The notes: a model not told the origin generated them from the letters alone. DNA of 47,146 nt from a virus (IMGVR_UViG_3300031857_000337:1-47146); one strand, 5' to 3'; shown: positions 43,037-47,146, counted from the stretch's first letter. A program made the numbers and translations.

Positions 43037-43666
43037 TCACAGTCCTCCCATCTTGCTTGCTGCCAGCACTGCGGTCAGCTTGGCGGTGTCGATCTCGGGT
43101 GCTTCCCGATCAGCCTTCTTGCGCTCAACGATCTCCTTGTGCTTGTTCTTGGCGTACTCAGGGACCAGTTCCCACAGCGGAGGCCACGCCTTCAGGGCAG
43201 GCGACAGCGTTGAGTAGGCACCCAACACCTTGGTCACACCTTCAGTGAACTCCCCGGCCTGCTTGCGGACTACAGCGCACTTCTCCTTCCATGCTACGAC
43301 TTCTGCGTAGAGTTCTCCCCACGCGAGATCATCTTTCAGGGTGAGTGCACCACCATAGTAGTTCACTTCTGCCGGGGCATCAGCAGGCAGACGCCTGGGC
43401 CACCGCTTGCGTGAGGACAGAGTTAAGTGCAGGTTTACTACCTGCCCACCGACCCGCTGCACAGCGATCTTGTCTGCCGCGTCAAAGAACTCTTCAGGAA
43501 GTTGCTCCATGAGCGGGACGTATTTGCCGAACAGCTTCTCGTAGATGTAGTCACCCCAACCTAGCGGGGCGGTAGCCTCCGCCGCCTTGATCCTGTCAGT
43601 GAACTTGGCACGGGCGTTAGCGGTGATCTGCTCAGTCAGTTCCTTAGTTATGCGAACGGTTGCCAT
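43037..43666 (-). CDS. Early protein, possibly Nmad5-like (nucleotide modification-associated)
   Basis: This encodes 209 residues from the ATG at 43666, with GGAGA six bases upstream. The opening VRITKELTEQITANA, the middle LTLSSRKRWPRRLP, and the C-terminal KVLGAYSTLSPALKAWPPLWELVPE resemble proteins catalogued as nucleotide-modification-associated domain 5 in phages. This is from memory and uncertain. The domain family has no proven activity. A one-base gap separates it from the DUF6378-like gene. Confidence 0.6.
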   Translation of the reverse strand: MATVRITKELTEQITANARAKFTDRIKAAEATAPLGWGDYIYEKLFGKYVPLMEQLPEEFFDAADKIAVQRVGGQVVNLHLTLSSRKRWPRRLPADAPAEVNYYGGALTLKDDLAWGELYAEVVAWKEKCAVVRKQAGEFTEGVTKVLGAYSTLSPALKAWPPLWELVPEYAKNKHKEIVERKKADREAPEIDTAKLTAVLAASKMGGL

Positions 43667-43895
43667 TGCTGTTCTCCATATCATCATACAGGTTGGACAG
43701 GCTCTCATATGCCTGCGCTAAGAACTCATGCTTGGGTACGTTACTCTGGGCAGCGCAGTCGGCCAGCAGGTACAGCAATGCCGTCACCACTGTACCCATT
43801 TCATAGCCAGAACACGCCTGCCCAAGCAGGATGGTGAGGGCACCAAGGCCCTCGGGTTCATCGTCATCAAACACTACACTCACCTCGCTTACCAC
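43644..43895 (-). CDS. Small early protein, unknown
   Basis: This encodes 83 residues with a GTG start at 43895; GAGG lies seven bases upstream inside the VWA gene, which it overlaps by seven bases. The product is helical with ALTILLGQACSGYEMGTVVTALLYLLADCAAQ and an acidic N-terminus (FDDDEPEG). It overlaps the next gene by 23 bases. It may be a small partner of the VWA protein. Confidence 0.6.
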   Translation of the reverse strand: MVSEVSVVFDDDEPEGLGALTILLGQACSGYEMGTVVTALLYLLADCAAQSNVPKHEFLAQAYESLSNLYDDMENSNGNRSHN

Positions 43896-45031
43896 TTCAC
43901 CACCTCGCCGAACGGTGCCTTGTCAGCACCATCGCTGACCCAGAGCACGGGATAGTCAGGCTCCGGACCGAAGTCGGAGCAGTACAGATCGGTCAGGAAC
44001 ACACAGGCTACCGGCTCGATGTTGTTGTCAGTCATGTACTGGAACACCGGGCTGAAGGCCGTGCCGCCGCCACCATGCGGCTTGATATCCAGCGCATCAC
44101 CGGGTTCATAGACATCCGCATGGGACACCTCGCTGTCGAAGTAGATCACATGCAGCTTGGCAGGACGGAAGTGTTCGAACACCTTGGTCACCTCGGCTGC
44201 CGCCTGATTGATCTGCTGCGGAGTGATAGAGCCAGAGCAGTCAACACAGAATGCAAACTCACCCATCGACTCACCGGTAACGCTCGGCAAGTATAGACCC
44301 TGCGCTGCAAAGATGCGGCTCGGTCGGGCATAGGTCCGGGTATCGTTCTTGCACTTCTGCATGAACCGCCAGAGCACATCAGCCCAGTTGACCTTGGGTT
44401 GCAGCACCGCATCGACAAGTCGCTGCATGTTTGCCGACAGTTTGCCCATCATCTTGGCAGCCTGTGCTGCCTGAGCAACCTGCACTTTCATCTCGGCAGC
44501 AGCTTGAGCCTGCTCGGCAGGGCTACCCCCACCGTCCTCGCACTCATCGTAAGCCTCGCCGCCACCGCCGTTGTCATCGTCGTCATCAGGCAGCAGGTTG
44601 TAGATACCATCACTGGTGCCACCGCCTGCGTTGTACAGGTTGGGATCGAGACAGCCACCGGGGATGAACTTGCCGATACCTTCCTGCGTCAGGTGGTGAT
44701 TGATCACATAGTCACATGCCCGGTTCCACCTGCCCGGAGTGCGCTCACCGCGCCGATAGTTATGCTCGAACATGGGGTGGAAGCACTCGTGGGCAACGAG
44801 GAACTTGAGTTGCTCATCACACAGCGGATCGATGAAGTTGGGGTTGAACTTGACATACTTACCGTTGGTTGCCGCAGTGGGGACAGACTCGTCCAGTATG
44901 AACGGCATGTTGAGAGCGATGGTCCCGACGAAGGGATGCTCTAGGATCAGGCTGGTCTTGGCCTTGGCCAGACGGCGAGTGAGGGCGACACTGTCGCCCT
45001 CATAAGCACGCTTCTTGATTGCTACCTGCAT
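43889..45031 (-). CDS. VWA-domain protein with N-terminal metallopeptidase-like domain (DUF2201-type)
   Basis: This encodes 380 residues. The N-terminal domain carries HECFHPMFEH, a full HExxH zinc motif (H81, E82, H85), with ACDYVIN (D107) after it. A Gly/Asp-rich linker runs about 135-175. The C-terminal von Willebrand A domain has the metal site D264-C-S266-G-S268, T324 and D348. This architecture pairs with MoxR-type AAA+ ATPases to remodel or activate other proteins, and such an ATPase gene lies two genes upstream. The phage target is unknown. Confidence 0.85.
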   Translation of the reverse strand: MQVAIKKRAYEGDSVALTRRLAKAKTSLILEHPFVGTIALNMPFILDESVPTAATNGKYVKFNPNFIDPLCDEQLKFLVAHECFHPMFEHNYRRGERTPGRWNRACDYVINHHLTQEGIGKFIPGGCLDPNLYNAGGGTSDGIYNLLPDDDDDNGGGGEAYDECEDGGGSPAEQAQAAAEMKVQVAQAAQAAKMMGKLSANMQRLVDAVLQPKVNWADVLWRFMQKCKNDTRTYARPSRIFAAQGLYLPSVTGESMGEFAFCVDCSGSITPQQINQAAAEVTKVFEHFRPAKLHVIYFDSEVSHADVYEPGDALDIKPHGGGGTAFSPVFQYMTDNNIEPVACVFLTDLYCSDFGPEPDYPVLWVSDGADKAPFGEVVKW

Positions 45032-45042
45032 TAGTTTGCTCC

Positions 45043-45513
45043 TTAATCTTTAGCGAAGTCACCGTGGTGTTTCTGTCTTGTCAGACTAACAACCGCAGCA
45101 GCCTCCTCTATAGTTTTATATGAACCGAGGTATGTATTACGACCATTGATAGACAGTTGTGCCTGCCATCGCTTGTCTTTCTTATTCCATGTAACTCCTT
45201 TAACACCGCTAGACGTATACCCTTTGGTGTTAAAACAGTTCTGTTGTTGGGTACATGGGCGCAGATTTTCTATGCGGTTGTCAGTGCGGATACCGTTTAT
45301 GTGATCTATATATTTAGGTAACCACCCGTGATGGTATAGAAATACTATGCGGTGTTCAGGGTATATCCTGTTATCTATATAGATTTGCCTGTACCCATTA
45401 CCGTTTATAGTACCGGCAGGCCGGTCAACCTGCCGGTTCCGTGTCTTCTTGAGCCACCATAGATGGCCGTCTTCATACCTCAGTATCGACTGAATATATT
45501 CTTGCGTCAGCAT
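45043..45513 (-). CDS. HNH homing endonuclease with AP2-type DNA-binding tail
   Basis: This encodes 156 residues. The HNH core has HRIVFLYHHGWLPKYIDHING (H54, D70, H71) and DNRIENLRP (N79-P86). The C-terminal AP2-like repeat is GVKGVTWNKKDKRWQAQL with a following LGSYKTIEEAA. Free-standing enzymes of this sort spread by cutting alleles that lack them. It sits between the DUF3150 and VWA genes and is visibly richer in A+T than both; for example 45301-45360 has 24 G/C of 60. It seems a later arrival with its own promoter and AGGAGG site. Confidence 0.92.
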   Translation of the reverse strand: MLTQEYIQSILRYEDGHLWWLKKTRNRQVDRPAGTINGNGYRQIYIDNRIYPEHRIVFLYHHGWLPKYIDHINGIRTDNRIENLRPCTQQQNCFNTKGYTSSGVKGVTWNKKDKRWQAQLSINGRNTYLGSYKTIEEAAAVVSLTRQKHHGDFAKD

Positions 45514-45530
45514 AGCTACCTCCTACGTTG

Positions 45531-45559
45531 ACGCTATGTTATGATGGGAATAATGTCAA
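45531..45559 (-). promoter_or_regulatory. Predicted promoter of the homing endonuclease gene
   Basis: On the - strand a perfect TTGACA (45559-45554) is followed after 17 bases by TAGCGT (45536-45531), keeping T1, A2 and T6 of the -10 box. It lies just upstream of the HNH gene and overlaps the end of the DUF3150-like gene. Spacing is ideal; the -10 is weak. Confidence 0.4.
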
Positions 45560-46413
45560 CCCGGCTGCATGAATACGGACATTGCGTCCATGATCTTGCG
45601 TGCTTCCTCTGCCGTGTCCTGACGGACATCGAGGTCGTTACGCAGGGTATCAGGGTGGTGGTCCAGTAGCTTGCGCTCCACTGCCTGCCGCATGGCTTCG
45701 AGGTTGGGGTCTTCAGAGATATTCAGACGTGTCAGTAGGTCACAGGTCTCCCTCGCGTTCTCGATCATGCTGTCACGGAAGATATTCTTAGGGTCGGACA
45801 GCTTCTCGGTGATGTGTTCGACATGCTTGTACAGCCGGTGCCAGCAATCATTCATTGCCTCCTGCTGGATCGAAGTCATCCGGCTTTCGAGGTCCTCTTG
45901 GATGCGGGTAAGCTCATCACTGGACAGTTCGACACGGAAGTCGTTGCTCGGCACAGGGAAAATACCCATGTCCATGCTGAACTTGCCGATGATGCTCTCC
46001 TTGGAGGGGTAGTCCTTCTCGTCATAGAGATCACCCAGCCACCGCTTGGCCTCGGCCACGAGGTACTCGTAGTTATCGAGGAACGTGTTGACCAGCGACT
46101 GCCACTCAGACTTCTCCTTGCGGAAGTCCTGCATGAACTGGAGGTAGTTGGCACTGGGCAGGATGCGGGTACCATCGACACCCCAAGGCAGGGTATTCTT
46201 GGCGAACTTCTCACGGATCACACCAGTCTTCTGGTGGACGTTGGCAAGCAGATCGTTAAGCGGAAGCAGAGACTTGTTGTAGCGACCAGCGCTGGTACTG
46301 GCACGGTTGATATCAGCCACTTCCTTGGTGGCCTTCTTGTCTAGTTTGCGGGCGGTCCACTGCGAGATCGACAGGGACACGAGAAGGGCACGATCATTGA
46401 GCATCATAGTCAT
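45556..46413 (-). CDS. DUF3150-like protein of the AAA+/VWA module
   Basis: This encodes 285 residues from the ATG at 46413, with GGAGT seven bases upstream. MLNDRALLVSLSISQWTARKLDKKATKEVADINRAS at the start, and the NTLPWGVDGTRILPSANYLQFM and VPSNDFRVEL segments, match the DUF3150 pattern. It is helical and charged throughout. In phages it is typically found with a MoxR-like ATPase and a VWA protein, so it may be the substrate-binding or bridging part of that machine. Confidence 0.78.
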   Translation of the reverse strand: MTMMLNDRALLVSLSISQWTARKLDKKATKEVADINRASTSAGRYNKSLLPLNDLLANVHQKTGVIREKFAKNTLPWGVDGTRILPSANYLQFMQDFRKEKSEWQSLVNTFLDNYEYLVAEAKRWLGDLYDEKDYPSKESIIGKFSMDMGIFPVPSNDFRVELSSDELTRIQEDLESRMTSIQQEAMNDCWHRLYKHVEHITEKLSDPKNIFRDSMIENARETCDLLTRLNISEDPNLEAMRQAVERKLLDHHPDTLRNDLDVRQDTAEEARKIMDAMSVFMQPG

Positions 46414-46442
46414 ATCAGTTACTCCGCTAAGTGATTGATTTA

Positions 46443-47141
46443 TCAGAACAGAACGTCTTGGTGGGCCAGCGACCACTTGACGAACGCCTGCGTCGAAGCG
46501 AGGTCAGGGTCCTTACGCACCGCTTGGCTGACCATCAGGACAGAGAACTCAGCAGGCATACGCTCGGCATAGGTAACCGCACGGTCCATGTTGCTGTCAG
46601 TAATCCGGGCAGCAAGCGAACCAGACAGGGCATAGAGCGTTGCCGGATCGGTCGGCACGTCAGCCGTTGACGGGTTCATAAGCACAGCATCAGGGTTGGG
46701 CAACTTGCGCCAGATACGCATGAAACCAACGAACTCAGCGGCTGCACCCTCACCCACGGCACCCTTGAAGCACTCGTACTCAGCCTCGAAGGGCACAGTG
46801 CCAAGCACATCGGAGACACCTTCGACCCAGCTACGGGGAGTCGGGTTGGCATCGCGCTGCGGATCGAAGTCATGCAGCAGACCGGGACGGAACCGGATAA
46901 AGCTAATAACCTCGGGCTTGACGTTGTGGTCGATCATCCACTTGGTGCTGTCGTTGAGATCAGTCTCGAACTCCAGTGTGGTCTCGCGGTTGGCGAGGTG
47001 GCTCAGAGTGCGGACAGCACCAGCACGATCAGACTGTCGGTTACCAGTGGACACCACCTGCCAGCCATCAGCCAGTGGCACACCATGCAGGTCACGAGCC
47101 TGACAGAGATGAGCAATGGCCTTCTGGTGATCCGGGCTGGC
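46443..47141 (-). CDS. MoxR-like AAA+ ATPase, C-terminal part (at window edge)
   Basis: The readable frame covers 232 residues, from ASPDHQKAIAHLCQARDLHG to the end. It shows sensor 1 VVSTGNRQSD, the arginine finger in LANRE, a lid with VISFIRFRPGLLHDF and sensor 2 NPTPRSW: the second half of a MoxR-type AAA+ domain. The Walker A and B part would lie beyond the right edge. An in-frame TAG stands at 47142-47144, right after the visible conserved part. It may be an assembly or edge error or a true truncation. The first start codon inside the frame is GTG at 47081, which would leave no ATP site. Confidence 0.72.
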   Translation of the reverse strand, partial: ASPDHQKAIAHLCQARDLHGVPLADGWQVVSTGNRQSDRAGAVRTLSHLANRETTLEFETDLNDSTKWMIDHNVKPEVISFIRFRPGLLHDFDPQRDANPTPRSWVEGVSDVLGTVPFEAEYECFKGAVGEGAAAEFVGFMRIWRKLPNPDAVLMNPSTADVPTDPATLYALSGSLAARITDSNMDRAVTYAERMPAEFSVLMVSQAVRKDPDLASTQAFVKWSLAHQDVLF

Positions 47142-47146
47142 CTAAG

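Follow-up and report, generated by a model that had tools for sequence, protein, structure and literature searches.

A linked three-gene module in a viral contig

The viral record IMGVR_UViG_3300031857_000337 (IMG/VR; linear, 47,146 bases; the whole stretch analysed, hereafter the window) carries on its minus strand a module of three genes, which encode an AAA+ ATPase, a DUF3150-type protein and a protein with an N-terminal zincin-like domain followed by a VWA domain. We give roughly even credence to the reading that the products of these genes work together as a single ATP-driven machine with which mobile elements (phages, conjugative plasmids and islands) remodel proteins, and in which the peptidase is optional. 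The presence of the module in the window was confirmed by profiles and motifs: as an earlier note on this DNA had claimed, an ATPase end, a DUF3150-like protein and a protein combining an HExxH motif with a complete VWA metal site are linked on the minus strand. All three parts of that gene set stand, but a homing endonuclease gene between the DUF3150-type and VWA genes had gone unmentioned, and the order from the right edge is AAA+, DUF3150-type, homing endonuclease and zincin/VWA.

The linkage was assessed in loci seeded with single genes. The AAA+ and DUF3150 genes were present in 72 of the 79 VWA-seeded viral loci (relatives 52-95% identical), and the other 7 were truncated, since their contigs start within ~500 bases of the VWA gene; the three genes thus co-occur in related phages, as the module idea of the earlier note supposes. 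When viral loci were seeded with DUF3150, the AAA and VWA genes adjoined it wherever the contig was long enough. Bacterial loci were found through the VWA gene alone, unselected for DUF3150 (29-65% identical), and among the 55 with full flanks all three genes were present in 47, only AAA in 6 and neither partner in 2. Three gene orders were observed, namely AAA-DUF3150-VWA, AAA-VWA-DUF3150 (Chitinophaga) and DUF3150..AAA..VWA (Brucella and relatives), and linkage that persists despite varied order is stronger evidence of joint function than conserved order among close kin. The ratio of non-synonymous to synonymous substitution rates (dN/dS) was 0.06-0.24 across the three genes, which, together with the viral co-occurrence, places the gene set far beyond chance. 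Matches to the VWA protein were found in 626 phage records, and the VWA gene in 60 of 72,556 plasmid records.

Motif conservation in the three proteins

The ATPase part in the window matched phrog_1297 ('ATPase'; E 1.9e-46) over profile positions 111-352 of 356, so that the first ~110 residues (the N-terminal third, with Walker A and B) lie beyond the contig end. Contig L003, which is 100% identical over the ATPase part, extends upstream to a complete gene; its N-terminal half (RAELLKQTLKALYPIQRTVLIVGPPGGGKTTIV...GGILLFDDRTQ) is joined directly to the first window residues, ASPDHQ, and contains intact Walker A (GPPGGGKTT) and Walker B (ILLFDD) motifs. The N-terminal half on which the earlier note had made the module depend therefore exists. 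The last window bases (47142-47146) read CTTAG where L003 reads CTCAG, which identifies the in-frame TAG at 47142-47144 as a false stop caused by a contig-end discrepancy. A group I intron at the ATPase edge, prompted by this TAG before the open frame, was rejected because L003 reads through, and a circular genome joining the window ends was rejected because position 1 opens inside a plus-strand gene unrelated to the ATPase.

Of 85 non-redundant AAA+ homologues, 84 have the Walker A Lys, and all 85 have the first Walker B Asp, the sensor-1 Asn and the arginine finger. These four elements and the PF00004 score (22.2 bits versus a cut-off of 21.2) assign the protein to the AAA+ family. The AAA_5 profile scored 19.2 bits, under its cut-off; no MoxR-specific model was listed, and homologues have been annotated as MoxR by others. 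The analogy with MoxR/VWA pairs drawn in the earlier note fits.

The zincin/VWA protein matched PF13203 (DUF2201_N; 5.8e-41, 141 bits versus a cut-off of 23.2), PF09967 (DUF2201; 1.5e-24, 86.9 versus 26.4 bits) and, over residues 16-379, phrog_1314 (1.8e-100), which places it in the DUF2201/N4 gp25 family. The AlphaFold2 model was confident (mean predicted local distance difference test, pLDDT, 90.4), and comparison with VWA structures confirmed the VWA fold (Z 11-12). The metal ion-dependent adhesion site (MIDAS) was complete, with D264, S266, S268, T324 and D348 each present in 101/101 VWA homologues. At the zinc motif, H81 was conserved in 97/101, E82 in 87/101 and H85 in 97/101. In the window, HECFH and the further conserved H90 and D107 point to a zincin-type site, and the domain is probably an active zinc peptidase.

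The catalytic Glu was missing in 14 of the 101 homologues: 10 keep the histidines (a Desulfobacterota clade, L145 and L122), and 4 lack the whole site. The latter are the phage contigs L082-L085, which have lost the entire zinc motif (N-I/V-T-M-R) and kept all three genes. On the VWA tree, at least 4 changes were needed to account for the Glu loss. Because the Glu is lost in these members while the MIDAS and AAA+ motifs are invariant or nearly so, some lineages can do without peptidase activity but not without the ATPase/MIDAS core. These natural losses provide ready-made variants that separate protease from remodelling function. An association between DUF3150 loss and Glu82 loss was seen by eye in the Desulfobacterota clade, with two independent pairs only and no significance.

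The DUF3150-type protein scored below the membership threshold of PF11348 (E 0.0026, 17.5 bits versus a curated cut-off of 24.9). However, PF11348 was matched by 43 of 81 family members (best 3e-8), and the viral model nearest to it in fold carries a DUF3150 annotation (template modelling score, TM, 0.88); the remote kinship through relatives and viral model, with the sub-cut-off score, underlies the name 'DUF3150-type'. The AlphaFold2 model was confident (mean pLDDT 93.7). Among solved structures there was no PDB match at E<=0.001 and the C-terminal helices gave middling Z scores only, so the fold can be claimed neither as known nor as new. A literature search, with subscription journals mostly outside its coverage, found no paper naming DUF3150.

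The module on plasmids and islands

The bacterial copies were located on conjugative plasmids and islands, an occurrence that was not visible to the earlier reader from the window sequence. Their neighbours included genes for PRTRC ThiF, Prok-E2_D, VirB4, VirB11, RNase H with Sipho_Gp157, DnaN, ligase, SSB and RadC. On the conjugative plasmid pMSMB608, the PRTRC genes ParB-E-C-F-B-A-ThiF are followed by AAA-DUF3150-VWA and then by VirB11, VirB2-4 and TraD of a type IV secretion system, and Cupriavidus plasmid I has PRTRC then the triad in the same order. PRTRC ThiF scored over its cut-off in 16/29 module-bearing bacterial genomes, compared with 0/14 control genomes, and in 13/29 it shared a contig with the VWA gene at a distance of 4.6-14.9 kb. 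The triad adjoins the PRTRC cassette and is not among the listed PRTRC components (ThiF, ParB, A, B, C, E and F).

Phage sequences occupied more than one place in the VWA tree (L087, for example, groups with a Chloroflexota copy at strong support), so the gene has probably passed between phages and cells or plasmids more than once. A contig binned in an actinobacterial metagenome-assembled genome (L092) carries a triad 65% identical to that of the phage; it probably belongs to a phage and was binned there by mistake. Neither the sharing of the DUF3150 triad with plasmids nor its linkage to PRTRC appears to have been described in the literature covered by our search. Because the same module, with its dedicated third protein, is present on conjugative plasmids, attention turns away from virus assembly and towards a need common to phages and plasmids, which alters the set of functions that need testing.

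Proposed function and alternative explanations

In the proposed remodelling machine, the AAA+ protein would act as a hexameric motor, while the VWA domain would hold the target at an acidic residue through its MIDAS metal site and transmit force. The precedent for this grip is CbbQO (PMC4660213): CbbO engages an acidic rubisco residue through its VWA/MIDAS, and CbbQ serves as the motor. The DUF3150-type protein would be the dedicated third subunit and would most likely act as an adaptor for substrate or assembly, and the zincin domain would not be needed for the core function. Rather than the virion, the likeliest target class would be a protein complex with a part in the replication of the element or the handling of its DNA; neighbours of replication type (RNase H, DnaN, ligase, SSB and RadC) counted for this reading, as did the DNA polymerase, helicase and primase genes on the same strand in the window.

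Several observations weigh against this proposal. Mobile-element neighbours are often accessory and prove no function. In the jumbo phage PBECO4, the AAA/VWA pair lies among virion genes, which counts against a replication target for that branch. Even with speed filters off, DUF3150 was undetected by profile within 5-8 kb of the AAA/VWA genes in the N4-like phages phi G17, Arace01 and Roseovarius phage 1, in the jumbo phages PBECO4, 30-2 and G, and in the rV5-like phage AlexBoehm, cyanophage S-TIM61 and Thermus phage phiFa. The Synechocystis plasmid pSYSA likewise has AAA and VWA, with DUF3150 undetected by profile within 12 kb. In one large branch, then, DUF3150 is a stable third partner, but it does not accompany every AAA/VWA-peptidase pair.

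The earlier note had suggested a targeted protease or chaperone. As a targeted ATP-dependent protease, the AAA motor would feed the target to the zincin domain, with cleavage as the essential output; we regard this as possible but unlikely. The intact HExxH and following conserved residues in the window, with the Glu in most homologues, the dN/dS of the VWA gene (0.11-0.22) and the similarity of the N-terminal domain (modelled within the whole protein) to selecase and M48 zincins, which was weak, speak for it. The note's emphasis on a protease is weakened by the repeated loss of the catalytic Glu, with the MIDAS and triad linkage persisting. A role as virion-assembly chaperone and maturation protease, in which AAA/VWA would aid particle assembly and the zincin would trim structural proteins, has been proposed for jumbo phages (PMC7824862), and we consider it unlikely here. 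The PBECO4 pair is found among tail and head genes; virions of the related phAPEC6 contain a protein annotated 'ATPase' (gp265c), whose gene is numbered six away from thymidylate synthase and is possibly the same one (PMC7247149); in a virion preparation of a Vi01-like phage, a VWA protein was detected with a single count (PMC10892097); and the p618/p892 pair of the archaeal virus ATV is cited as a precedent in PMC7824862. However, the same triad occurs on conjugative plasmids and islands, which make no virions, so a role in virion assembly only cannot be general. In addition, the window triad lies with replication genes on the strand opposite to the major head protein, and in N4 the gp24/gp25 genes belong to the middle class and not to the late one (PMC4193335).

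The PRTRC linkage allows a further, improbable account, in which the triad would be the mobile-element counterpart of Cdc48-type extractors acting with the PRTRC ThiF/E2-like and JAB-like proteins. Together they would recognise proteins on the element's DNA that are modified or hold tightly to it and would pull them off or clip them, so that host or replication proteins would be cleared; phages would run the same machine without the modification cassette. Very improbable is the 'cobST' reading applied to archaeal tailed viruses and cyanophages (PMC8651126), in which the proteins would be the cobaltochelatase subunits CobS and CobT and would raise vitamin B12 production in the host: the general layout of an AAA+ gene plus a VWA gene is shared, but at E<=0.1 NCBIfam gave no CobS model for the AAA protein and no CobT model for the VWA protein, the zincin domain and DUF3150 partner do not agree with it, and no cobalamin gene was found among the scanned window proteins. 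PHROGs (phrog_1314) and several RefSeq phage records give the family of the zincin/VWA protein the name 'HNH endonuclease', a label that appears to have spread widely. That the protein is such an endonuclease is almost certainly wrong, as the label is all that favours it, and Pfam found DUF2201_N plus DUF2201 and no HNH domain both in the window protein and in proteins so labelled.

Gene context and feature coordinates

Downstream of the module, the minus strand carries Nmad5-like, DUF6378, DNA polymerase A, exonuclease, helicase and primase/helicase genes, whereas major head protein, tail fibre and transglycosylase genes lie on the plus strand. The module was therefore assigned to the replication-side gene block, and from its position alone it is plausibly early. 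The gene just 3' of the module (43037-43708) matched Nmad5 (nucleotide modification associated) slightly under the Pfam cut-off. A defence system was considered and rejected, since PADLOC gave no convincing match for the three proteins and only short P-loop matches for AAA. The coordinates are listed in Table 1.

Table 1. Positions of the module genes and their key residues in the window
Feature	Position	Strand	Basis or gene
AAA+ ATPase (phrog_1297 type), C-terminal ~232 residues	46443-47141	minus	profile match, motifs
Sensor-1 Asn	47040-47042	minus	AAA+ gene
Arginine finger	46833-46835	minus	AAA+ gene
DUF3150-type helical protein, 285 aa, third module component	45556-46413	minus	weak PF11348 match, relatives, fold
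Free-standing HNH_3 + AP2 homing endonuclease	45043-45513	minus	HNH_3 3.4e-14, AP2 2.4e-7
VWA protein with N-terminal zincin-like domain (DUF2201_N + DUF2201; N4 gp25 family, phrog_1314)	43889-45031	minus	profiles, motifs
HECFH zinc motif, residues 81-85	44777-44791	minus	sequence
MIDAS DxSGS, residues 264-268	44228-44242	minus	sequence
MIDAS T324	44060-44062	minus	sequence
MIDAS D348	43988-43990	minus	sequence

The homing endonuclease is outside the functional module. In L004, which has no endonuclease there, the DUF3150 stop overlaps the VWA start as TGATG, and the window endonuclease occupies exactly this junction. An endonuclease between the two genes was also found in L012-L014, L044 and L077 and not in L004-L011.

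Other genes were observed at related loci. In Thermus phage phiFa and a dozen Acidobacteria loci, RNase H is encoded within the module or immediately behind it (L022:4282-4779 and L103:7204-7770); in phiFa its gene stands between AAA and VWA. A protein with weak MTES_1575/Vsr endonuclease similarity is encoded between AAA and VWA in jumbo phage 30-2 (L254:5437-6933). The two-gene form on pSYSA (L172) has toxin-antitoxin genes on one side and a type I-D CRISPR locus on the other, and a conserved ~170 aa protein with no Pfam match is encoded just 3' of two-gene Desulfobacterota-type loci (L171:7340-7855; 8 loci, most without the catalytic Glu).

Comparison with known systems

The AAA+/VWA-peptidase pair is already described in phages. 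The earlier note held that the role in phages is not established, which stands, yet the pair itself had been reported as a jumbo-phage MoxR-vWA pair with a metallopeptidase domain and a proposed role in virion assembly (Iyer et al. 2021; PMC7824862) and as gp24/gp25 of N4. In the jumbo-phage pair, the AAA+ gene adjoins that of a VWA protein with an N-terminal metallopeptidase domain, as in the window. It differs in that no DUF3150 was found near the jumbo-phage copies tested and that the PBECO4 copy lies among virion genes, compared with a replication operon here; in the passages of the paper that were consulted, sharing between phages and plasmids is not described.

N4 gp24/gp25, which are core genes of N4-like phages/Schitoviridae and middle-expressed in N4 (PMC4193335, PMC7650795), are adjacent and encode homologous AAA+ and DUF2201 proteins, but in a two-gene form with DUF3150 undetected within 7 kb. 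Genes of this type are thus core to a whole phage family, and one is mislabelled as an HNH endonuclease.

The cellular CbbQ-CbbO rubisco activase (PMC4660213) and RavA-ViaA (PMC10585395) combine an AAA+ motor with a VWA adaptor and provide a useful mechanistic model; they are not members of the family, as they have no zincin domain, different third regions and cellular housekeeping targets. The MoxR-vWA ternary conflict systems (VMAP, iSTAND, FtsH, beta-propeller; PMC7159879) resemble the module in having AAA+, VWA and a third protein. No variable effector domains were seen in the module. In contrast to those systems, the third component here is DUF3150-type, and the module is carried by phages and plasmids.

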